Positions 1,760 to 34,965 of a DNA stretch of 34,965 bases are shown here, one piece after another. Every line of letters begins with the position of its first letter. The first letter of the stretch is position 1. This stretch comes from Longimicrobium sp. (GTDB taxonomy: Bacteria > Gemmatimonadota > Gemmatimonadetes > Longimicrobiales > Longimicrobiaceae): assembly GCA_036387335.1 (NCBI GenBank), contig DASVTZ010000172.1, forward strand, positions 1-34,965, read 5' to 3'. The position numbers were made by a program, and so were the translations under genes. The notes under the pieces were generated by a model. The model made no database searches. It had not been told where the DNA came from and saw only the letters and a list, made by a program, of their open reading frames with translations.

Positions 1760-1783
1760 CGCACTTACGCACTCACGCACTCA
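1760..1783. repeat. Octamer tandem repeat at the gdh stop codon
   Basis: Three 8-bp units, CGCACTTA, CGCACTCA, CGCACTCA. The last unit contains the stop codon of the glutamate dehydrogenase gene (1781-1783). Read on the gene's strand, the array starts at TGA and continues as GTGCGTGA-type units. The same octamer family occurs at 19979-20010, 29822-29845 and 30084-30107. Confidence 0.85.
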
Positions 1784-4700
1784 CCCTCCCGGCGCCACCG
1801 CCGTCAGCAGCCGCACGGCGAGTGCGTGGGCCGACAGCGGCGAGTCGGGCCGCAGCTCGGCGAGGAGCTCGCGGAGGGCGGCCATCTCGCGGCCCCGCTC
1901 CTCCTCCAGCGCGGCGAGTGCGGCGGCGGGAGAGGCCCCGTCGGCGCGCGCCTGCGTTTCGGCGACCAGGCGGCGTTGCGCGGCGGCGACGTCGTCGGCC
2001 AGGGCCTGGGCGTGGCGGCGGTCCCAGGGGTCGTCGCCGGCGGCGGTGCGCAGGCTCTCGCGCAGGCGCGCGGTGCCGACGCGCTCCGAGACCAGGTAGT
2101 AGGCCTCGGCGGTGCGCAGCGTCTCCGTGCCCGCGGCGCGGGCGGCGGCGACGATCTCCAGGAGCTGCGGGAGGAAGCGCAGCGTGATGAGCCGCTCCGC
2201 CATCGTGCGATCGACTCCCAGGTCCTGCAGCTCGCCCAGGCGCGAGAGGAAGAGGCTCCGGTCCTCGCCCGCCACGAAGCGCGCAAAGGAACCTCGCAGC
2301 GTCGCCAGCCCCGCGCGCCCCTCGTCGATCAGGGCGGGGGTGGGCGTGTCCGGCGCGGTGTTGGCGAGGACCCAGTGCGTGGTCGCCTCCAGCACGCGCG
2401 CCAGGCCGCTGAGCCAGCGGTACACCGTCTCCGAAGGGAAGCGCCCTTCCAGCGTCGCGAGGTCGGTGCGGATCTCCGGCGCGCCGGCGATGCGCGACGC
2501 GACCAGCCATGCGCGCACCACCCGCGGGATCTCCACCCCCGAGTCGCGCGAGACGCGGTGGAGGAACGAGGAGCCCATCAGGTTCCCCAGGTCGTTCACC
2601 AGCTCCGTCGCCACGATCTCGCGGCGGAGCTGGTGGGCGTGCACCAGCGACTCCCCCGCGGCTTCCACGGCGGCCGGCGGGAAGTAGTGGACGAGGTAGC
2701 TGTCCATCGCCGGATCGTCCAGGACGTCGCTCTCCAGGAGCTGCGCCTTGGCGTACAGCTTGGAGTGCGCCAGCAGCACGCTCAGCGTGGGACGCGTGAG
2801 CCCCAGCCCCTCGCGCGCCCGCTCGCGGATCTCCTCCGGCGCGGGAATCCCCTCCTGCTCGCGGTCGAGGCGGCGGTCGCGCTCGAGCTGGCCGATCAGC
2901 GCCGCGAAGTCGTCCAGCGCATCCTTTGAGCGCGTCTGGTCCAGCGACACGGCGAGCGACTGGCCGATGTTGTTGCGCAGCACCAGCTCGCTCACCTGGT
3001 CCGTCATGGAAGCGAGGAGCTCGTTGCGGCCTTCCAACGTCAGCCCGCCTCCTTCGACCACGCGGTTGAGGAGGATCTTGAGGTTGACCTCGTGGTCGCT
3101 CATGTCCACGCCGGCCGAGTTGTCCAGCGCGTCGGTGTTGAGCCGCACCCCCTTGAGTGCGGCCGAGATGCGCGCGCGCTGCGTGAAGCCGAGGTTGCCG
3201 CCCTCTCCCACCACCTGGCAGCGGAGCTCCTGCGCGTCCACCCGCACCGGATCGTTGGTGGTGTCGCCCGCGTCGGCGTGGGTCTCCTCGGCGTCCTTGA
3301 CGTAGGTGCCGATGCCGCCGTTCCACAGCAGCTCCACGGGCGCGGTGAGCACCGCGCGCACGAGGCCTTCGCCGTCCAGCCGATCCACGCTCTCGGGGAT
3401 GCCGAGCGCACGCCGGGCTTCGGGGGTCAGCACGACCTCCTTGGAGGCGCGCGGAACGAGCATGGCGCCCGGCGACCAGAGGGCGCGGTCGTAGTCCTCC
3501 CACGACGAGCGCGGCAGGGCGAACATCCGCTTCCGCTCCGCGAACGACGCCGCCGGATCGGGGCTGGGGTCGATGAAGACGTGGCGGTGGTCGAAGGCGG
3601 CCAGCAGGCGGATCTGCTCGGAAAGGAGCATTCCGTTGCCGAAGACGTCGCCGCTCATGTCGCCCACCCCGGCCACGGTGAAGGGCGTGCGCTGGATGTC
3701 CTTGCCCATCTCGCGGAAGTGGCGCTTGACGCACTCCCACGCGCCGCGGGCGGTGATCCCCTCGCGCTTGTGGTCGTAGCCGTGGCTCCCGCCGCTGGCG
3801 AAGGCGTCGCCCAGCCAGAAGCCGTACTCCGCCGCCACCGCGTTTGCCGTGTCCGAAAGGTGCGCCGTGCCCTTGTCCGCGGCCACCACCAGGTACGGGT
3901 CGTCGCCGTCGTGGCGCACCACGTCCTGGGGCGGCACCACCTTCCCCTCGACGATGTTGTCGGTGAGGTCCAGCAGGCCGCGCATCAGCGTCATGTACTG
4001 CTGGCGCGCCTCCTCCATCTGCGCATCGCGCTCGGTGAAAACGCGCTTGGTGATGAAGCCGCCCTTGGAGCCGCTGGGGACGATGGTGGCGTTCTTGACC
4101 ACCTGCGTCAGCACCAGCCCCAGCACTTCGGTGCGGAAGTCGTCCGGCCGGTCGCTCCAGCGGATGCCGCCGCGCGACACGGATGCGCCGCGCAGGTGCA
4201 CCCCCTCCATGCGCGACGAGTGCACGTAGATCTCGTAGAGGAGCCGGCTCTTCTTCAGCTCCTCGACGTCCGCGTTGCGCACCTTGATGGAGACGTACGG
4301 CACGCCGCCGCTGCGCCCCGTGGGGGTGGCCGCGCCGTGGCGGAAGTAGTTGGTGCGGACGGTGGCGTCGATCAGGTTCATCAGCCGCCGCAGCGCGCGG
4401 TCGTCCGCCAGCGAGGTGACCCCCTCCAGCTCGCGGACCAGCTCGCCGTGGATGGTCTCCTGCGCCTCGTCGCGGCCGGTGCGGGCGGGGTCGAAGCGCG
4501 TCTCGAAGGCATCCACCAGCAGGCGGGCGATGCGCGGATGCGCGGAGAGGGCGCGCACCGGCGCCAGCCGCGAGGGCACCGCGCCGATCTGCGACGCGTA
4601 ATTGGCGTAGGTGCGCAGCACGTCCGCCTGGCGCCAGCGCAGGCCGGCGCGCAGGATCAGCGCATTGAAGGGATCGCGCGGCGCGTCGCCGGCGCGGGCG

Positions 4701-6637
4701 GCGAGGAGGCACTCCGCCAGCGCGGGGGCCAGGTCGTCGGGGATCGGCTCGCCGTCGCGCGTCTGCACGTTGAAGGAGTAGACGCGCAGCGTGGGCTCGC
4801 CGGGGTGCAGGAGCTCAAAGGTGTCCACTTCCAGCACGCGCACCCCAGTGTCTTCCAGGATGGGCATGAAGTCGGAAAGGACGAGCCGCTCGTCCTGCAG
4901 GTACAGCTTGAGGACGGTGGCGCCGGGGCTCACCGTCTCTCCTTCCACCGGCTGACGGATGGCGAGGCCCACCGTCTCGCCGCGGGCGCGCATCCCCTCC
5001 AGCTCCATCACGTCGTGCACCGCCGCCGCGGGAATGCTGGCGGCGCGATACTCCTCGCCGAAGCGGGCCGCGTAGGCCGTGGCCAGCCGCCGCGCCTCGC
5101 CGGGCTCCACCACACCCGCGAGCGACTCCTCCAGCCGATCCGCCCAGGTGCGCAGCAGGACGTTCAGATCGCGCTCCAGCTGCCGCTCGGTCGGCGCTTC
5201 CACCGGCGCGGCATCGGCGTGCAGCGAGAGGTAGATGTGGAGGCGCGCCTGGTCGCCCGAGGAGAAGGCGACGTGGTGCGAGCGCACCGTGCCTCCCAGC
5301 CGCTCCGAAAGGAGCGTTCCGATCTGCGCGCGCATGTCGGCGCTGTAGCGGCCGCGGGGGAGGATCACCATGGCGGCGACCTCGGTGCGCAGCGGATCGG
5401 GACGCAGCACGACGCGCACTTCGTTGCTGAAGAGCTGCCCGAGGACCGCGTTGACCTCGTCGTGGAGCTGCTCGGCCGATGCCTGGAAGAGCTCTTCCTT
5501 GGGCATCGACGCCACGATGGAGATGATCTCCTTGTAGTCGTGCGAGCCGGGGCGCGTGCCGCTCGCCTCCAGGATGCGGCGCAGCTTCAACCGCAGCACG
5601 GGGACCTCGGAAGGGCTCTGCGAGTACGCCTGCGAGGTGAAGAGCCCCAGGAAGCGCCACTCGCCCACGATCTTCCCCGCGTCGTCCAGCTTCTTCACGC
5701 CGATGTAGTCCATCCGCGCGCGGCGGTGCACCGTGCTCTCGCGGTTGGCCTTGCTCACCACCAGCAGCGGCCCGCCCACCACGCGCGCGCGCAACTCGTC
5801 GGAGAGCTCTGCCAGCGGCCTGGGCGCGGCGTACGCGGACGACTCCGAGTCGGCCAGGATGCCGAGCCCGGAGCCGGCGTCCACGGAGAGGCGCTCGTCG
5901 TGCACATCGTAGCCGCGGAAGCCGAGGAAGACGAAGTTGCCCTCGCGGATCCAGCGCAGGAAGTCCACGTACTCGCGGTACTCGTCCGTGTGCTCGCCGT
6001 CGCGCGCGGCGTAGCCCTCCACGGCGGCCGTGGCCGCGTCCACCGCCGACAGCATGGCGTTGAAGTCGCGCGTGGCCTTCACCACGTCGGTCAGGCGGCG
6101 TGCGACCTCGTCGCGGATCTCGGCGCGCCGCTCCGGACGCGCCACGTGCGGGACCTCGCAGTGCACCAGCGCCTCCAGCGAACCGGGCCCGCCGCCCGCG
6201 CCCGCCCCCACCGCCACGATCGCCCCGGCGCCGTCGCGCTCCACGCGCAGCACGGGGTAGATGTAGTGCAGGATGGGGATGTTCTCCGCGTTGAGGTACT
6301 CGCGGATGGTGTCCACGATGAACGGCCTGTCCCCCACCTCCGCGCGGATGGCGGTGACGGGAGCGGGCCACCCCTCCTCGCCAGGATCGACCAGCTCGAC
6401 GTTCACCTGGTCGGGCCGCGAGCGGAGGAGGAACTCCCAGGCGCCCACGGTCATCGCTGCCAGCTCTTCAGGCGAGCGCTCTTCGGCGATGGAGCGCGGC
6501 ACCTTGGCGAAGAAGAGGCGCGCGAAGTCGCACAGCACGCCCCTGTCGGCGCGCTGCAGGTTGCCGAGGTGGGCGCAGAGGCCGTCCACGGTGACTGCCG
6601 GGGCGGCGCCCGTGGCCGCCGGATTCGTCGTGCTCAT
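1781..6637 (-). CDS. gdhB: NAD-specific glutamate dehydrogenase, large (180-kDa) type
   Basis: It interconverts L-glutamate and 2-oxoglutarate plus ammonia using NAD, mainly for glutamate breakdown in the cytoplasm. From the ATG at 6637 it is 1618 aa, matching the usual 1600-1650 aa of the class. The N-terminal half (to about residue 700) corresponds to the ACT/PAS-type regulatory part; it holds VGDRPFIVDTIREYL and the conserved GNFVFLGFRGYD. The catalytic region contains GGIRWSDRPDDFRTEVLGLV (about 820-840) and VPSGSKGGF with the likely substrate-binding lysine (about 855). GVGDMSGDVFGNGML and LWNGGIGTYVK are further family signatures. A TTG at 6727 could add 30 residues, but they look non-conserved. 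It is transcribed alone and divergent from the lipoprotein operon. Function is confident; the exact start less so. Confidence 0.95.
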   Translation of the reverse strand: MSTTNPAATGAAPAVTVDGLCAHLGNLQRADRGVLCDFARLFFAKVPRSIAEERSPEELAAMTVGAWEFLLRSRPDQVNVELVDPGEEGWPAPVTAIRAEVGDRPFIVDTIREYLNAENIPILHYIYPVLRVERDGAGAIVAVGAGAGGGPGSLEALVHCEVPHVARPERRAEIRDEVARRLTDVVKATRDFNAMLSAVDAATAAVEGYAARDGEHTDEYREYVDFLRWIREGNFVFLGFRGYDVHDERLSVDAGSGLGILADSESSAYAAPRPLAELSDELRARVVGGPLLVVSKANRESTVHRRARMDYIGVKKLDDAGKIVGEWRFLGLFTSQAYSQSPSEVPVLRLKLRRILEASGTRPGSHDYKEIISIVASMPKEELFQASAEQLHDEVNAVLGQLFSNEVRVVLRPDPLRTEVAAMVILPRGRYSADMRAQIGTLLSERLGGTVRSHHVAFSSGDQARLHIYLSLHADAAPVEAPTERQLERDLNVLLRTWADRLEESLAGVVEPGEARRLATAYAARFGEEYRAASIPAAAVHDVMELEGMRARGETVGLAIRQPVEGETVSPGATVLKLYLQDERLVLSDFMPILEDTGVRVLEVDTFELLHPGEPTLRVYSFNVQTRDGEPIPDDLAPALAECLLAARAGDAPRDPFNALILRAGLRWRQADVLRTYANYASQIGAVPSRLAPVRALSAHPRIARLLVDAFETRFDPARTGRDEAQETIHGELVRELEGVTSLADDRALRRLMNLIDATVRTNYFRHGAATPTGRSGGVPYVSIKVRNADVEELKKSRLLYEIYVHSSRMEGVHLRGASVSRGGIRWSDRPDDFRTEVLGLVLTQVVKNATIVPSGSKGGFITKRVFTERDAQMEEARQQYMTLMRGLLDLTDNIVEGKVVPPQDVVRHDGDDPYLVVAADKGTAHLSDTANAVAAEYGFWLGDAFASGGSHGYDHKREGITARGAWECVKRHFREMGKDIQRTPFTVAGVGDMSGDVFGNGMLLSEQIRLLAAFDHRHVFIDPSPDPAASFAERKRMFALPRSSWEDYDRALWSPGAMLVPRASKEVVLTPEARRALGIPESVDRLDGEGLVRAVLTAPVELLWNGGIGTYVKDAEETHADAGDTTNDPVRVDAQELRCQVVGEGGNLGFTQRARISAALKGVRLNTDALDNSAGVDMSDHEVNLKILLNRVVEGGGLTLEGRNELLASMTDQVSELVLRNNIGQSLAVSLDQTRSKDALDDFAALIGQLERDRRLDREQEGIPAPEEIRERAREGLGLTRPTLSVLLAHSKLYAKAQLLESDVLDDPAMDSYLVHYFPPAAVEAAGESLVHAHQLRREIVATELVNDLGNLMGSSFLHRVSRDSGVEIPRVVRAWLVASRIAGAPEIRTDLATLEGRFPSETVYRWLSGLARVLEATTHWVLANTAPDTPTPALIDEGRAGLATLRGSFARFVAGEDRSLFLSRLGELQDLGVDRTMAERLITLRFLPQLLEIVAAARAAGTETLRTAEAYYLVSERVGTARLRESLRTAAGDDPWDRRHAQALADDVAAAQRRLVAETQARADGASPAAALAALEEERGREMAALRELLAELRPDSPLSAHALAVRLLTAVAPGG

Positions 6638-11132: not shown

Positions 11133-11906
11133 TCAGCCTTCCACGCGGAACTCGGCCTCCGGGGCGGTGGCGGAGGGGGCGCCCGGGGGCGACACCCGCA
11201 GCTCGGCGCCTTCCTTGGCCACGTAAACGCGGCCGTCCACCTCCACCACGGCCGCATCGGCGCCGCGGGGAAGGGCGATGCGAATCTCGCCCGCGCCGGC
11301 ATCCAGCACCTCGATGCGGCCCGGCGCCGTGCGGAAGCGGGCACCCGCCGCCGCGCCGCTCGCCGAGACCTCCACCAGCTCGCCGCTGGTGAGCCGGGCG
11401 TGGACCACCAGACCCGGCGCGGCGCCGTTCAGCACCACGCGCACCGCACCGCCGTCCGGCAGGATGGAGACGCCGGCCGCGGGAGCGGGCACGGTGGGGG
11501 CCGGCGCCGCATTCGGCTTCAGCGCGGGGAGCTCGCTGCGGGCCGGGGCGGCGGGGGAATCGCCCGCGATCCACTCGCGCAGCGGAGAGCCGGGGACGGC
11601 CGCGAAGGCGACCCCGCCCAGCGCCACCAGGAGCATGGCGGCGCGGAGCAGCGCCCGCCGCCCCTCGCCGGCCCACTGCGCCGCGGCACGCCTGCGCCGC
11701 AGCGACATCTGCGCGGCGGCGGTGGGGGGCGCCACGTCGGCGCGGGCGAGCGCGGCGCCCAGCGTGGCGTGGTCCGCGCGAAGGGACGCCAGCTCCACGG
11801 CGCACGCGCCGCAGCCGGCAAGGTGGGCATCCGCCGCGCGCCGCTCGCCGCCGGCCAGCTCGCCGTCGGCGAGTGCCTGGAGGGTGCCCTCATCCAAGTG
11901 CTTCAT
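11133..11906 (-). CDS. Zinc-finger anti-sigma factor, membrane-anchored
   Basis: This 257-aa protein should hold the co-encoded ECF sigma factor inactive until a signal arrives. The N-terminus has the zf-HC2 pattern H27-x3-C31-x2-C34 (DAHLAGCGAC). After a basic linker there is one membrane helix (about 84-103, LLRAAMLLVALGGVAFAAVP). A Pro/Ala-rich stretch and an approximately 110-residue beta-rich periplasmic domain follow (VSILPDGGAVRVVLNGAAPG and on). Its ATG lies inside the sigma gene (17-bp overlap), the usual arrangement for translational coupling. The receptor gene follows directly. The periplasmic domain probably senses the signal, but the sequence does not show what that signal is. 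Confidence 0.9.
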   Translation of the reverse strand: MKHLDEGTLQALADGELAGGERRAADAHLAGCGACAVELASLRADHATLGAALARADVAPPTAAAQMSLRRRRAAAQWAGEGRRALLRAAMLLVALGGVAFAAVPGSPLREWIAGDSPAAPARSELPALKPNAAPAPTVPAPAAGVSILPDGGAVRVVLNGAAPGLVVHARLTSGELVEVSASGAAAGARFRTAPGRIEVLDAGAGEIRIALPRGADAAVVEVDGRVYVAKEGAELRVSPPGAPSATAPEAEFRVEG

Positions 11907-12474
11907 CGTCCTTTTCCTCGTGTCTCTCGTATACCGCCGCGAAGCGCCGCGCGGCCCGGGCGAGCAGGGTGCCCACCGAGCCCGGCGCGACCCCCGCCGC
12001 CTGCGCGATCTCGTCGTATCGGAAGCCCTCCTCGCGCATCAGCAGCATCTGCCGGTCGCGGGGGGCGATCTGGTCCAGTGCACGCCGCACGCCGTCCACC
12101 GCGCGCGAGCGCTCCAGCAGCTCTTCAGGCCCGGGAAGGGCCGCCGGCCGCCAGGGGTTGGCGGTCAGGATCCGCTCGCGCCGCTTGGACATGCGCGTGC
12201 GGTCGCGAAAGAGGTTCGTGGCCACGGTAAAGAGCCAGAGCCGGGCCTCGTCTTCGGGCAGCTTGCGGCCCAGCAGGCGCACGAACGCCTCCTGGGCCAT
12301 GTCGTCCGCCGCATCCGTGTCGCCCGTAAGGCGTTGCAGGTAGCGGAAGAGCGACGGGTACACCCGCCGGAAGAGGGCGTCGTAGTCCGCGCCGGCCTCC
12401 GGCGCGCTCAACTTCGCGCCTCGCCGTGGCGGGCCCGCCACACCGTGGGTGGAGAGGGATGGCAGGGGGTGCAC
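11890..12474 (-). CDS. ECF-type RNA polymerase sigma factor
   Basis: It directs RNA polymerase to a small set of promoters. Region 2 is visible as YDALFRRVYPSLFRYLQRLT and DAADDMAQEAFVRLL, followed by WLFTVATNLFRDRTR. Region 4 is RALDQIAPRDRQMLLMREEG, FRYDEIAQAAGVAPGSVGTL and LARAARRF, with the helix-turn-helix. Region 3 is absent, as in all ECF factors. The ATG at 12474 gives 194 aa, but the first 25-30 residues are not typical; a start nearer YDALF, for example a TTG in KLSAPEAG, is possible. It overlaps the anti-sigma gene by 17 bp. The matching promoter motif upstream at 12575-12601 suggests it activates its own transcription. Confidence 0.93.
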   Translation of the reverse strand: MHPLPSLSTHGVAGPPRRGAKLSAPEAGADYDALFRRVYPSLFRYLQRLTGDTDAADDMAQEAFVRLLGRKLPEDEARLWLFTVATNLFRDRTRMSKRRERILTANPWRPAALPGPEELLERSRAVDGVRRALDQIAPRDRQMLLMREEGFRYDEIAQAAGVAPGSVGTLLARAARRFAAVYERHEEKDDEALG

Positions 12475-12601: not shown

Positions 12602-12607
12602 GCGCGA

Positions 12608-12684
12608 GTCCTAAGTCCTAAGTCCTAAGTCCTAAGTCCTAAGTCCTAAGTCCTAAGTCCTAAGTCCTAAGTCCTAACTTCTAA
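12608..12684. repeat. Heptamer tandem array GTCCTAA x10
   Basis: Ten exact head-to-tail copies of GTCCTAA fill 12608-12677, followed by a decayed unit CTTCTAA (12678-12684). It lies just upstream of the ECF promoter and only about 30 bp from a second, unrelated heptamer array. It is non-coding. Confidence 0.95.
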
Positions 12685-12712
12685 GTGCCTACTGCCGAAC
12701 TGCACGGCAGCG

Positions 12713-12767
12713 CTTGGCACTTGGCACTTGGCACTTGGCACTTGGCACTTGGCACTTGGCACTTGGC
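12713..12767. repeat. Heptamer tandem array CTTGGCA x7.9
   Basis: Seven exact copies of CTTGGCA (12713-12761) plus six bases of an eighth. It ends 8 bp from the stop codon of the plug-protein gene (12776-12778). On that gene's strand it reads TGCCAAG repeats immediately after the stop. Confidence 0.95.
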
Positions 12768-12775
12768 CCTACCCA

Positions 12776-14695
12776 TCACTGATAGCGCGTCCAGATCAGG
12801 ATTACCCCGCACTCGTTCCCCCGGTGCCGGAACTGCGGCGGGGCCAGCGCGTCACGGGCGTACACTTCGATCCCCTCCACCTCCTGCGCCTTGATGTAGT
12901 CCAGGCTGAAGTCCCCCTGCTCCCCGAAGCGCCGCCCATCCACGTACACCGTGGGAAAGCACCCCGGCGTCACCGGCATCGGCTCGCTCGACTCGGGGTC
13001 GGCACGGCGGCGCTTCGCCGGGTCCACGCCCATGATGCTCGTGTTGTCCGATCCTATCAGCATGCCGCGCAGGTATACCTTGCCGTTGCTCACCACCAGC
13101 GAAGGGACGGTGGCGAGGAGGTCGGTAAGGCCGCGGATCCTGAGCTGCTCGATGCGGCTGCGGGTGATGAAGTGCCCCGACGTCACGCCGCGCCCAGCCA
13201 TGCGGTCGTAGAAGCCGCCGAAGCCGCGCGGGGCACGCGCCGTCACCCCTTCCACGATCACCGGCTCTTCCGCGGTGTCCGCCCTCGCGACGCGCAGGGT
13301 GTCGGTGCGGCGCGCGGCGCGGCGTGCGCCCGGCGCCGCCGATGCCAGGAGCACCGGGGCCGGCGCGGTGCCGTCCGCCGCAACCGTGACGCGCTGCTGC
13401 GGCGGGATCACCTCCAGCGCCTCCAGCCGCGGGTGGGCGAAGGAGACGGTGTACTCCCCCGCCGGGAGCCCCGCGATCACGAACTCGCCCGCGGAGTCGG
13501 CCACCGCCTCGTGGCTGGTGCCCGAGATGAAGACTTGCGCGCCGGCCAGCGGTGCGCCCGTGTGGTCGGCCACGCGCCCGGTGAGCGCCAGGCGTACGGG
13601 CGCGCGCTCCAGCGGCCGGCCGTCCGCCGCGAAGACGGCGCTGACCTCGCCCCCCTGCTCGCGGATTCCGGTAAGGCGCGCGCGGCGCTCCACCGCCATC
13701 CCGGAATTCCCGGTGGCGCGCATGCTCTGGTCCACCGACATCGCGGGGACGCGCACCCACCAGCGCTGCACGATCCACCCGCCGCCCGGGCTGCGCCCGA
13801 ACTCCACGCGCCCGCCCAGCTTGTCGCTCCCGGCGCCGGGCTCCAGGTTCTCGTAGCGGTACTCCATGTGGCTCAGCTCGCGGGTGGCGCGGTCCACCCA
13901 CAGCACCCCGGCCACGTCGGGAAGGCGGCGCCCCCCCACGGGCTGGAAGGCGATCCCCACGCGCGCGGCGTTCTCCCCCTCCCCCGGAACCATACGGAAG
14001 CAGTGGCCGTCCAAAAAGGCATCGGAGAGGAGCGCCTGCGCGTCCGGCGCGTGGTAAAAGGTGCCCTGCGGCGTGGTCTGCACGTAGCCGTCGCGCCCCA
14101 GCTGCTCCGCGGGGAGGCTGCGGAACGGGTGCGGCCCCACCGACGTCGACGCCTTGCGGTCCTCCGCCAGCACGCGCAGGTCGCTTACGGTGAGGTCGCG
14201 CGTGTACTGGTCCACGCGGAAGCGCAGCGACTGCCGCTCCTGGAGGTACGCGGCGGCGTCCAGCGCCTTGCGCGCCTCGTTCCACACCGCGGCGGTGGCG
14301 GTCCCTTCCTCGGGACGCACTTCGCAGCGGCGGCGCGCCCCGGCCGTCACCGCCTCCAGCGTCACGGCGCTCGTCGTCCCTTCCATGCGGTACTGCCGCG
14401 TCTCGCCGGCGGCCAGCGCGAGCGCGGGCGACTCGGTGGCCTGGAAGCCGATCCGCTCCGCACGCAGCCGGTAGCTCCCGGCTCCCGGAGCCCGCAGGGT
14501 AAAGCGGCCGGCCTCGTCCGTCAGAACGCGGCCTCGCACCTTCCCGTCCGCATCCAGCAGCACCACCATGGCGCCACCCAGCGGCCTGCGCGCGGCATCC
14601 ACCAGCTCGCCCTGGACCGTCTGCGCCGCCAGTGGCCGCGCGGCGAGGAGCAGGGCCAGGAGCGCCAGGATGCGCGGAAAGGGGATGGGACGCAT
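12776..14695 (-). CDS. Secreted carboxypeptidase-regulatory / TonB-plug-like protein, 639 aa
   Basis: An ATG start gives a clear signal peptide (RILALLALLLAARPLAAQ). A first CarbopepD-type regulatory domain follows (VQGELVDAARRPLGGAMVVL, about 27-105). A middle domain of about 250 residues has the family pattern SHMEYRYENLEPGAGSDKLG. A second regulatory domain begins at LTGRVADHTGAPLAGAQVFI. The C-terminus is plug-like: LRIRGLTDLLATVPSLVV, then VYVDGRRF and IEVYARDALAPPQF, ending in CGVILIWTR. No barrel follows, so it cannot be a transport receptor on its own. It probably sits in the periplasm or at the outer membrane, perhaps docking to a TonB system. An ECF-type promoter precedes it, suggesting control by the nearby sigma factor. 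Confidence 0.85.
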   Translation of the reverse strand: MRPIPFPRILALLALLLAARPLAAQTVQGELVDAARRPLGGAMVVLLDADGKVRGRVLTDEAGRFTLRAPGAGSYRLRAERIGFQATESPALALAAGETRQYRMEGTTSAVTLEAVTAGARRRCEVRPEEGTATAAVWNEARKALDAAAYLQERQSLRFRVDQYTRDLTVSDLRVLAEDRKASTSVGPHPFRSLPAEQLGRDGYVQTTPQGTFYHAPDAQALLSDAFLDGHCFRMVPGEGENAARVGIAFQPVGGRRLPDVAGVLWVDRATRELSHMEYRYENLEPGAGSDKLGGRVEFGRSPGGGWIVQRWWVRVPAMSVDQSMRATGNSGMAVERRARLTGIREQGGEVSAVFAADGRPLERAPVRLALTGRVADHTGAPLAGAQVFISGTSHEAVADSAGEFVIAGLPAGEYTVSFAHPRLEALEVIPPQQRVTVAADGTAPAPVLLASAAPGARRAARRTDTLRVARADTAEEPVIVEGVTARAPRGFGGFYDRMAGRGVTSGHFITRSRIEQLRIRGLTDLLATVPSLVVSNGKVYLRGMLIGSDNTSIMGVDPAKRRRADPESSEPMPVTPGCFPTVYVDGRRFGEQGDFSLDYIKAQEVEGIEVYARDALAPPQFRHRGNECGVILIWTRYQ

Positions 14696-19962: not shown

Positions 19963-19978
19963 GGATCGATGAAGGGAA

Positions 19979-20010
19979 GTGCGTGAGTGCGTTGGTGCGT
20001 GAGTGCGTTC
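19979..20010. repeat. Octamer tandem repeat between two genes
   Basis: Four units: GTGCGTGA, GTGCGTTG, GTGCGTGA, GTGCGTTC. The right end runs into the stop codon of the outer-membrane protein gene (20009-20011). The left end is 16 bp before the LVIVD start codon, so it fills nearly the whole gap and must affect the leader of the LVIVD gene. Confidence 0.88.
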
Positions 20011-21283
20011 AGTGTCCGCGGGCCGCGGCGCCGTAGCGGCCCATTCGGGGGTGCGTGCCGCCGATCTCGATGCGGGCACCGGCGGCCAACGTCCACATGC
20101 GGTCCGAGCCGTAGAACTCGCGCGGCACGAAGACGCTGGCGGTGCGGAGCGGCTCGGCGGCGAGGCGCGCGGCTTCGACGAACGGGCGCATCCGAATGCC
20201 GCCCAGCGAGCCGGCGCCGTGGCTCAGGTGCAGCGTGGCGATCGTCCAGCGCGTGATCCCCTGCAGCGACACGTCCGCGTGCGGCGACGGCGTGCGAAAG
20301 GGGTCCGCCAGCCGCTCCTCCTCGGGACGCTCGGTGCGCTCCAGGCGCAGCGCCATTTCGATGCCGTGGCGCCGGACCGCTCCCTCCGCCAGCACGGACG
20401 AGAGGCGAAAGGAGCGGAGCGAGCCGTTCATCTGGTCCGTGCGCGCCCATTCCACCAGCGCGTAGTCGCGCGATGCCGACCCGCAGTCCGCCTCGTAGCG
20501 GACGGAGGCGGCGATCTTGTCGTGATCGAGGCCCACGCCGCGCGGCTCCTCGGGCGAGTTGATCCGGGCATAGCCGCCGGATGCTTCCCAGCCGCGGCGC
20601 GGAGCCAGGGTGGCGCGCACGGCCCACGAGTCGCCGAAGCGGCCGGGGTCGCCCATGTCGCCCGTGCCGAAGGGCTCGTTTCCGGCGAAGAGCGCCCCCT
20701 CCAGCGCCAGCGGGCCGCGCCGCACGGCCACGATGGTCATCAGCCGCTCCAGCACCTGCGCCAGGTGGTGGTTGGCGGGGAATTTGACGAAGGGCCGCAC
20801 CATCGGGTCGTCGCTGCCGAATGGGACGAAGCCGCGGCCCGCGCTCACCGAGATCTCGCCGCGCGCGTGCGGGCCGCCCAGGGGAGAGAACGTCGCGACC
20901 GCCTCGTGCATGACAGTGTGAGGGTGGCGGCGGTCGATGAACCCCTCGCCCCAGATCCCCGGATTCGGTTCGCCGTCCGCGAGGGAGAGCGCCTCCAGGT
21001 TGATGCTGGCCACCAGCGCCGCCCGCCCGCCCCACCCCGTAACATGCGCCATCACCAGCGGCTGCGTCACCTGCGCCTCGGTGCTCGACTCTCCGTTGAG
21101 CGCGGGCGCCGTGTGCGTGACGAGCGGGATCGCCTGCGCGCTCACGCTCAGCCGCACCGCCGCCGAATCGGGCGCATGCACGTGCTCCTGCGCCGCGGCC
21201 GGGGCAACGGTCAGGAGGAGCGCGGCGAGGGCGGCGGACGGCTTCACGCCCCGGCGAGTTTTGGGGATGGGGATCTCTCCCAT
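20009..21283 (-). CDS. Predicted outer-membrane beta-barrel protein, 424 aa
   Basis: I do not recognise a named family. The N-terminus carries a signal peptide (AALAALLLTVAPAAAQ, cleavage near residue 31), then HVHAPDS. The remainder is long alternating hydrophobic/polar stretches such as MTIVAVRRGPLALEGALFAG and WTIATLHLSHGAGSLGGIRM, as in porin-like barrels. Gly/Asp/His-rich turns include WGEGFIDRRHPHTVMHEA. The start codon overlaps the argR stop (TAATG), so the two are translationally coupled. The LVIVD lipoprotein gene follows. A role in uptake of an arginine-related compound is possible from the argR link but is inference. The His-rich loops might bind a metal. Confidence 0.8.
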   Translation of the reverse strand: MGEIPIPKTRRGVKPSAALAALLLTVAPAAAQEHVHAPDSAAVRLSVSAQAIPLVTHTAPALNGESSTEAQVTQPLVMAHVTGWGGRAALVASINLEALSLADGEPNPGIWGEGFIDRRHPHTVMHEAVATFSPLGGPHARGEISVSAGRGFVPFGSDDPMVRPFVKFPANHHLAQVLERLMTIVAVRRGPLALEGALFAGNEPFGTGDMGDPGRFGDSWAVRATLAPRRGWEASGGYARINSPEEPRGVGLDHDKIAASVRYEADCGSASRDYALVEWARTDQMNGSLRSFRLSSVLAEGAVRRHGIEMALRLERTERPEEERLADPFRTPSPHADVSLQGITRWTIATLHLSHGAGSLGGIRMRPFVEAARLAAEPLRTASVFVPREFYGSDRMWTLAAGARIEIGGTHPRMGRYGAAARGH

Positions 21284-29821: not shown

Positions 29822-29845
29822 GGGCGTTAGTGCGTTAGTGCGTTA
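29822..29845. repeat. Octamer repeat before the TPR gene
   Basis: Units GGGCGTTA, GTGCGTTA, GTGCGTTA, ending 9 bp from the TPR start codon (GTG, 29812). The array is the inverted counterpart of 30084-30107 on the other side of the intergenic element. Confidence 0.85.
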
Positions 29846-29867
29846 AGTCTGCGGGCGGTCCCCCCTT

Positions 29868-30059
29868 TGTCATCCTGAGGGAGCCGCCGCGCAGATCTAC
29901 GCACGTCTCAAAACTCTTGCGGCGACCGAAGGATCTAGCCGGCGCGGCAGGAGGCCCGGGCAAGCCAGCGAATCTCTCGGTACGCGCAGTAGATCCTTCG
30001 CTTCGCGCCAGAGGCTGGAGCGAAGGAGAGGGCGGAGAGGCGCTTCGCTCAGGATGACA
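29868..30059. repeat. Dispersed palindromic element (CATCCTGAG type)
   Basis: Perfect 12-bp end repeats TGTCATCCTGAG (29868-29879) and CTCAGGATGACA (30048-30059) enclose a second perfect 10-bp pair CGAAGGATCT (29927-29936) and AGATCCTTCG (29991-30000). No protein is likely. The end sequence is one I recall as a recurrent intergenic repeat in several soil bacteria. It resembles a non-autonomous (MITE-like) element of about 190 bp. Confidence 0.8.
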
Positions 30060-30083
30060 GAAAAGTCCGGCGCCGGGCTGTTG

Positions 30084-30107
30084 CGCACTAACGCACTCAC
30101 GCACTCC
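30084..30107. repeat. Octamer repeat after the histidine kinase gene
   Basis: Units CGCACTAA, CGCACTCA, CGCACTCC, ending 3 bp from the kinase stop codon (30111-30113). On the gene strand it reads GGAGTGCGTGAGTGCGTTAG directly after the stop, as after the glutamate dehydrogenase gene. Confidence 0.85.
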
Positions 30108-30110
30108 GTC

Positions 30111-31328
30111 TTACACCGAAAGCCCGCCCGTCTCCGGCAACACCTCGGCGATCAGGCAGGGGAACGAGATCGCGAACACGGTGCCGTCGGCAGGGTCGAA
30201 CTCGGCCCAGGCGCGGCCGCCGACGGATTCGATGGTTTCGCGCACGATCGCCAGGCCCAGGCCCGTGCCCTCCTCGCCGGTGACGGTGCCCTCGTGGGCG
30301 CGGAAGAAGCGGCGAAAGAGCTCCGGCCGCGCCTCCTCAGGCACACCCAGGCCGTTGTCACGCACCCTCACGATCACCTCGCAAGGGTCGCCGTCGCGCA
30401 CGGTGCCCTCCACGCGCACCCAGTGGTCCGGCTTGCCGGGGTCGCGGTACTTGATGGCGTTCGACACGTAGTTGGTGAGGCACAGCTCCACGGCCGCCGC
30501 AGGGACCTCCACGATGGGGAGGTCGGGCGCGAGCTCCACGCGCACGCGCCGCGCCTCGGCGAAGTCGCGGAGCTGCCGCGCCACCTCGGCGGCAGCATCC
30601 GAGAGAAGGATGTTGCGCGACGACTGCGACCCGTCCACCTCCACGCGCGAGAGCTCCAGGAGGTCTTCCAGCACGCTCTGCATCCCATCCGCGTTGCGGG
30701 CGATGATGTCCGTGAACTTCTCCCGCTGCGACGCCACGCTCCCCACCCACTCCTCGCGCAGCATCTCGTTGGCGCCGCGCACGGTGTTGATGCGGTTCTT
30801 CATCTCGTGCGTGAGCGAGCGGTTGAAGGCGCGCAGCCGGTCCTCGCGCTCCCTCACCCGCGCCTCGGCCAGCGAGAGGAAGTGGTTCGTGGTGTACTGC
30901 TGGATCACCGCCACCGCGCGGAACACGCGGTGCGAGCAGGCCAGCAGCTCCGCGGGCGAGCAGCCGGGCCCCATCCGCTCCGCCGTCTCCGCCAGGTGGT
31001 CGAAGAGGATGCCGCCGAGGATCTCGTACTCCTTGAGGATCTGGTGCGCCTCGAAGCCCTGCGCGTGGCGAAGCGCCCCCAGCTCCATCGCCTTCGCCAC
31101 CACCGGCACGTCCGCCGTGATCTCGGCCGCGACGTCGCCCACGTAGTCCGCGATCCCGTCCACCAGCAGCGGGACGTGGTTCAGCAGCTCTTCGGAGGGG
31201 AAGATGTGGGTCGGATGAATCGCCACGCGGTCCACGATCCGCTCCAGCCAGCGTCCCACCAGCGATTCGCGGGCTTCGCGGACGCTGTTGGCCATCGTCC
31301 GCGCAAGAGGTTCGTGGGAGGAGATCAT
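30111..31328 (-). CDS. Soluble sensor histidine kinase with RsbRD-like N-terminus
   Basis: A 405-aa kinase. The N-terminal 150 residues (LVGRWLERIVDRVAIHPTHI, LLNHVPLLVDGIADYV, RHAQGFEAHQILKEYEILGG) look like the all-helical RsbR/RsbRD-type sensing domain, which in relatives may bind small ligands or partner proteins. Then come the phospho-acceptor helix FNRSLTHEMKNRINTVRGAN (H174), the N box NYVSNAIKYRD, G1 DNGLGVPEEARPELF and G2 GTGLGLAIV. No membrane segment is present. The ATG at 31328 is used. No response regulator is nearby, so it is an orphan kinase whose target is elsewhere. H-x-x-x-(N/R)-type neighbours of H174 fit the general phospho-transfer family. Confidence 0.93.
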   Translation of the reverse strand: MISSHEPLARTMANSVREARESLVGRWLERIVDRVAIHPTHIFPSEELLNHVPLLVDGIADYVGDVAAEITADVPVVAKAMELGALRHAQGFEAHQILKEYEILGGILFDHLAETAERMGPGCSPAELLACSHRVFRAVAVIQQYTTNHFLSLAEARVREREDRLRAFNRSLTHEMKNRINTVRGANEMLREEWVGSVASQREKFTDIIARNADGMQSVLEDLLELSRVEVDGSQSSRNILLSDAAAEVARQLRDFAEARRVRVELAPDLPIVEVPAAAVELCLTNYVSNAIKYRDPGKPDHWVRVEGTVRDGDPCEVIVRVRDNGLGVPEEARPELFRRFFRAHEGTVTGEEGTGLGLAIVRETIESVGGRAWAEFDPADGTVFAISFPCLIAEVLPETGGLSV

Positions 31329-31378
31329 CGTGTCCTTCGGCGTCGGGATGCGTCGGAGGACCACGTGCCATAGCACGC

Positions 31379-34510: not shown

Positions 34511-34537
34511 GGGAATGGGGAATGGGGAATGGGGAAT
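34511..34537. repeat. Heptamer repeat GGGGAAT before the permease gene
   Basis: GGGAAT plus three full GGGGAAT units; on the gene strand it is ATTCCCC repeats ending 9 bp before the permease start. It is inverted relative to 34667-34695, so the two can pair. Confidence 0.9.
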
Positions 34538-34666
34538 GGTTAAACCAGGCCCATTCTTCTACGGGTGCGAGGCGAGGTACGGCGAGACAGACCCGCCCTT
34601 GGGGGAGCGAGGGCGACGGGGAGGCGGGCTCACGGCGAGATGCTTGTCCCGCCCGGAGTGCCCACC

Positions 34667-34695
34667 ATTCCCCATTTCCCCATTCCCCATTCCCC
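34667..34695. repeat. Heptamer repeat ATTCCCC after the ATPase gene
   Basis: ATTCCCC, ATTTCCCC, ATTCCCC, ATTCCCC, ending 5 bp from the ATPase stop codon (34701-34703). On the gene strand it reads GGGGAAT directly after the stop. The 129 bp between the two arrays show no gene. Confidence 0.9.
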
Positions 34696-34700
34696 GCCTT

Positions 34701-34965
34701 TCAGTCCGCCGCGTGCAGTGAGGCCCCAGCGGGCAGGCCCCCGTTGCGCGTCAGGAACGGAAGCCGTCCGCCGTAGGTCTGGCGCAGGTTTTCCTCCGTG
34801 AAGACCTCGCGCACCGGGCCGTCGGCGATGCGGCGCACGTTCAGCAGGAGGACCCAGTCGAAGTACTCCGGGACCGTTTCCAGGTCGTGGTGCACGACGA
34901 CGACCGTCTTGCCGGCGCGGCGCAGCTCCTGGAGGACGGAGACGATGGCGCGCTCCGTCTTGGCA
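34701..34965 (-). CDS. Metal ABC transporter ATP-binding protein, C-terminal part
   Basis: Only the last 87 codons are inside the window; the gene continues beyond the right edge. The visible part reads [40 protein letters not shown] (H-loop histidine), [15 protein letters not shown] and [16 protein letters not shown]. The last motif is characteristic of Mn/Zn/Fe ATPases such as MntB, SitB or ZnuC. It is the upstream gene of the transporter operon. A solute-binding protein would be expected further right. Confidence 0.93.

Follow-up and report, generated by a model that had tools for sequence, protein, structure and literature searches.

Intergenic palindromes and tandem heptamers of bacteria have mostly been studied apart, and neither has an agreed function. 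The STRR sequences of heterocystous cyanobacteria are, like the arrays reported here, heptanucleotide arrays lying between genes. Among palindromes, the closest systems are REPs and REPINs (GTAG and CGTC families), which are dispersed between genes, often close past stop codons, and can form inverted hairpin doublets; REPs measure 20–40 bp, and in the GTAG families, unlike the CGTC families, the repeat flanks a RAYT (Y1 transposase) gene (PMC3733652, PMC3116915, PMC12306157). Citing earlier work, PMC12306157 reports that ribosomes stall at REPs lying no more than 15 nt from a stop codon, the nearest experimental precedent for what follows. Among heptamers, the Xanthomonas and Nostoc repeats (GGGAATC, GGGGA(C/T)T) form intergenic 7-bp arrays, some inverted, which occupy the same gene gaps in related species with varying length and sequence; GGGGAAT was among the oligonucleotides tested there for G-quadruplexes (PMC4692102). 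The TAACTGA repeats of Beggiatoaceae, cyanobacteria and Bacteroidetes are abundant intergenic arrays with a single word per genome, nearly all direct and mostly just upstream of start codons (PMC4679880). A literature search on Longimicrobium repeats found nothing relevant.

The window, that is the whole 34,965-nt stretch analysed, is one contig (C172) of a Longimicrobium draft genome (G000; 265 contigs, 5.82 Mb). It carries two error-free arrays, GTCCTAA x10 (12608–12677) and CTTGGCA x7.9 (12713–12767), as the original prediction described them, at a spacing of 35 bp and not the 30 bp given there. Such arrays are not expected by chance: when 465 kb of unselected sequence from the same genome was replaced by a third-order Markov copy, zero perfect arrays of at least three copies were obtained at periods 6–20, while the real sequence held 20 (one at period 6, three at period 7 and 16 at period 8). 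The block lies where it had been placed, past the stop of the plug-domain gene (TGA at 12778–12776) and before the ECF sigma factor gene (Table 1). Array 2 lies 8–12 nt past that stop. Among named relatives, the plug protein is closest, at 83–84% identity, to one in the Longimicrobium MAG YPbin7. A search of the whole window against Rfam 15 gave zero matches above any family's gathering score, and a known RNA family was ruled out as the identity of the element.

Table 1. Repeat arrays and neighbouring genes in the window
Feature	Coordinates	Strand	Remarks
Array 1, AGTCCTA register x10	12607–12677	+	the element's 3′ arm when the minus (transcript) strand is read
Element centre	12678–12712		minus strand reads GCTGCCGTGCAGTTCGGCAGT, a degenerate version of the family's central hairpin
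Array 2, CTTGGCA x7.9 on plus, AGTGCCA on minus	12713–12767	-	5′ arm
Upstream gene	12776–14695	-	secreted protein, two carboxypeptidase-regulatory domains and a TonB plug domain
Downstream gene	11890–12474	-	ECF-type sigma factor with regions 2 and 4 of Sigma70; uncertain start, either 12474 or 12411
GGGGAAT array (x4, 34511–34539) with inverted partner (34665–34695)	34511–34695		same architecture, another word; about 5 nt past TGA of gene 34701–34964 (-)
Octamer AGTGCGTK, inverted arrays (29824–29845, 30084–30106)	29824–30106		same architecture; ~240 bp enclosed; about 4 nt past TAA of gene 30111–31364 (-)
Octamer array AGTGCGTK	19978–20009	+	abuts TGA of gene 20009–21283 (-)
Octamer array CGCACTCA	1760–1784	-	overlaps TGA of gene 1781–6637 (-)

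The two units had been thought to share nothing except their length. However, GTCCTAA reverse-complements to TTAGGAC and, in a shared register, GTCCTAA reads AGTCCTA while CTTGGCA, on the opposite strand, reads AGTGCCA; variants found across the genome (GTGCTAA, CTTAGCA) link both words into one AGTNCYN family. The two arrays are thus the arms of one inverted-repeat element built of AGT(G/C)C(C/T)N heptads, in which the palindrome and the tandem heptamer are combined. Nor are they unique in the genome. A search with three units of each word, allowing one mismatch, returned 49 matches per word, which fall in dozens of loci where a forward AGT(G/C)C(T/C)(A/G) array faces a reversed one over a short core, often CTGAAC-NGCN-GTT; octamer arrays are also found within the core of some of these palindromes. 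The modal arm has four units (left arm in 21, right arm in 18 of the 31 complete copies), complete copies span 55–200 bp, and essentially all arrays are intergenic. In a scan favouring neither word, G000 yielded 37 palindromes and a second Longimicrobium genome, G006, about 39 among the first matches listed (173 pattern matches there), and the pattern read backwards gave no match in either genome.

The heptad element shares with REPs the character of a small, high-copy, dispersed intergenic palindrome. It differs in its greater length, in its arms made of a variable number of tandem heptads and in having species-specific words at orthologous sites; no GTAG or CGTC tetranucleotide was seen in the outer-flank consensus of 31 copies (G-A-A/C-C-G-G-A), and neither of the two Y1_Tnp genes of the genome carries the repeat in its flanks. 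It is set apart from the Xanthomonas and Nostoc repeats by its palindromic order and post-stop position, and by its base composition: AGTCCTA and AGTGCCA lack the G-runs (at least three G per unit) of quadruplex candidates, which the separate GGGGAAT arrays have. The TAACTGA repeats are nearly all direct and mostly precede genes, while AGTNCYN arrays are inverted and lie behind stops.

The window copy is an expanded form of the element. Each arm consists of a single pure word (AGTGCCA x8, AGTCCTA x10), the arms are the purest in the sample and the left one, with 10 units, is joint-longest; the stem mismatches at about one base in seven. Folded alone, it is barely better than its shuffles (z −1.5 to −1.8) and, in isolation, it is a weak example of a hairpin.

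Of 31 complete copies, 22 have a stop codon 0–19 nt beyond one of their arms (median about 6 nt; 12 nt or less in 21), against a rate of 24.7% when 70-bp stretches are placed at random in gaps (p about 8e-8; loci partly picked through array matches, on whose choice this test should not depend; gene calls from our simple codon-usage script). The typical junction is a stop codon, about five bases, then AGTGC. Among 49 intergenic elements or part-elements, 41 lie between genes of the same direction, seven in divergent gaps and a single one in a convergent gap, a class that makes up 12% of gaps (p=0.03). The arms also show a weak polarity with respect to the gene, with AGTG in the 5′ arm and AGTC in the 3′ arm (17 to 5, p=0.04; the same remark on the choice of loci applies).

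Species were compared at two sites of the complex I cluster, E1 in the nuoE/nuoF gap (L064:1882–1953) and E2 in the nuoB/nuoC gap (L064:4676–4743). Both gaps hold the palindrome in seven further Longimicrobium genomes (G006, G005, G001, G008, G003, G009, G007), and are thus occupied in eight with that of the window, but the palindromes there consist of other words: AGTGCCT in G005, AGTCCTT/AGTGCTT in G001, AGTCCTA/AGTCCCA in G003 and G008, AGTGCCC in G009 and AGTGCCT/AGTACCN in G007. Heptad length is kept while the letters differ; positions 1–3 (AGT) and 5 (C) hardly vary between species. Agreement between left and right arms exceeded that obtained by permutation at unit position 6 (0.89 versus 0.54, p<1e-4), position 7 (0.76 versus 0.44, p<1e-4) and position 4 (0.70 versus 0.50, p=0.005), in a comparison of two orthologous sites among non-independent species with draft, partly incomplete genomes. 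Both arms switch word together between species. RNA folding of seven E2 versions (G000, G005, G001, G008, G003, G009, G007) gave z-scores of −6.1 to −7.5. Left arms at E1 measure about 6 units in G000, 10 in G006 and 20 in G003. The element is absent from G002, where both nuo gaps are only a few bases long and the genes nearly abut, and from E1 of G019, another genus of the family. At E1, G004 (L231) and G013 (L238) share a related insert of roughly 450–500 bp, unrelated to the palindrome.

Within species, unit-by-unit matching between arms was no better than with shuffled unit order (p=0.37), and was dropped as proof of compensatory change. The word-level agreement could therefore stem from homogenisation and not from selection for pairing. 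At position 4, unselected copies show an excess of mismatches between arms, weaker in G000 (p about 0.02–0.05) than in G006 (p about 0.0004–0.003), and the polarity of the copy, possibly an ancestral one, may lie behind this. In the palindromes of both genomes the mismatch takes the form of a C.C or G.G every seven bases. Selection against perfect arms was discarded as an explanation, the strong anticorrelation first seen at this position being partly an artefact of locus picking, on which that first arm-correlation test does depend.

Words differ sharply in number between species. Arrays of 3.7 units that end in A/G, T or C numbered, per genome, 181/17/2 (G000), 37/52/42 (G001), 0/0/0 (G002), 1014/11/1 (G003), 18/0/0 (G004), 34/118/4 (G005), 489/22/13 (G006), 12/0/23 (G007), 309/0/211 (G008) and 0/0/12 (G009). 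Of 136 genomes that belong to the order but not to the genus, only G013 gave matches; mis-binning is possible there, because the matching contig is 95% identical to the genome of the window. The site of the window itself is empty in G004, the MAG YPbin7, which reads TAGGGGGTTGTCACAGCGG where the window reads TGATGGGTAGGG-[element]-CGCGCTGTCACAGCGG.

Taken together, these observations make it probable that the two arrays form, as 3′ and 5′ arms, one expanded copy of a Longimicrobium-specific REP-like palindrome that acts as a post-stop mRNA hairpin and is homogenised by slippage and copying. In the mRNA the palindrome would fold into an intercistronic hairpin just past the stop. By analogy with E. 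coli REPs near stop codons, it may shield the upstream mRNA at its 3′ end, slow ribosomes leaving the stop, or both, and it would do so without ending transcription. The position of most copies would suit a REP-like translational control, in which a hairpin at most 15 nt past the stop lowers translation of the upstream gene. Slipped-strand replication would extend and homogenise each arm in steps of seven, and copying between arms and between loci would spread a single word through the genome, the window copy being the furthest advanced in this process. Slippage would account for the differing length of the E1 left arm from one species to another. The creation and repair of hairpin stems by template switching is an established process (PMC8794818); its proposed step between arms is unproven, since unit-by-unit matching did not rise above shuffled order. 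The element keeps its place past the same gene across the genus, while its word shifts as one in both arms and from locus to locus. Concerted repeat evolution and the idea of a post-stop mRNA hairpin thereby become testable at defined sites such as the nuoB/nuoC and nuoE/nuoF gaps.

Part of the same evidence could also be read, with less likelihood, as the trace of a selfish REPIN- or MITE-like element transposing behind stop codons, whose structure would serve transposition with no host function and whose word differences would come from repeated replacement with the element native to each species. The family is dispersed, presence or absence is clean at the site of the window and at the nuo gaps, copy number ranges from 0 in G002 to over 1000 pattern matches in G003, and the weak arm polarity would fit as well. 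However, no target duplication is evident at the empty site in G004, and occupation of two nuo gaps in eight genomes would require persistence or repeated hits. MITEs combine terminal inverted repeats with a target-site duplication and an autonomous partner; here, empty sites are seen with no clear duplication, and the search for a mobilising partner covered Y1_Tnp genes. The genome has two of these, and tandem AGTNC heptads are absent from their ~1.5 kb flanks, which hold other palindromes instead; mobilisation by a RAYT was rejected on this ground. These two genes, in L171 (C169) and L172 (C7), one with an internal TAG, have flanking palindromes (e.g. GCGGTTTCAACCGC) that are possibly a true REP family of this genome.

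Uniformity across loci needs either inter-locus copying or a trans-acting reader, and neither was seen. The second option, a DNA- or RNA-binding factor that would recognise the heptad word and whose coevolution would rewrite all loci, giving species 'dialects' at conserved sites, appears quite unlikely to us. Plain slipped-strand microsatellites, grown in place from chance seeds and inverted as a by-product of replication template switching, would explain the homogenised arms and the copy number varying between species in the left arm of E1, and the known building and repair of stems by template switching fits them too. Independent growth, however, gives neither one word at dozens of loci per genome nor a position behind stop codons, and we hold this origin to be very doubtful. 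Highly improbable is the view that the palindromes are genus-specific intrinsic terminators. They are indeed very stable stems right behind stop codons, but no U-tract follows them (T 30% over the first 8 nt past the element, with position 7 mostly C), convergent gaps are under-represented and copies lie inside the nuo cluster. That nuo genes are co-transcribed is well established. A terminator scan of the window copy found none, and the identity was rejected on the missing U-tract, the negative scan and the intra-nuo copies.

A sequence-blind mechanism fixing repeat length in unrelated heptamers, the explanation originally offered by reference to cyanobacterial short tandem repeats, has hardly any likelihood left: periods 7 and 8 dominate and heptad length stays constant under word change, but both arrays belong to a single word family, octamer arrays occur at a similar frequency and the near-invariant AGTNC core is a partial refutation. 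Period 7 is special as that proposal implied, with 58 perfect arrays of at least three copies and none at periods 9–13 in a 1.22 Mb sample partly chosen for heptamer matches; the same sample, however, has 39 at period 8, which in unselected sequence outnumbers period 7 by 16 to 3. The third word invoked, GGGGAAT, does form an array in the window, and this too has an inverted partner. The arrays consist of a small set of specific words sited past stop codons and not of just any sequence of a given length.

Another octamer, ACACAGAG, makes the commonest perfect array of the unselected G000 sample (L081–L120), with eight of the 16 period-8 arrays, and is seldom close past stop codons (2/24). The AGTGCGTK octamers and GGGGAAT heptamers are nearly all intergenic, some in inverted pairs, and 25 of 70 and 11 of 29 intergenic arrays, respectively, lie within 15 nt of a stop.
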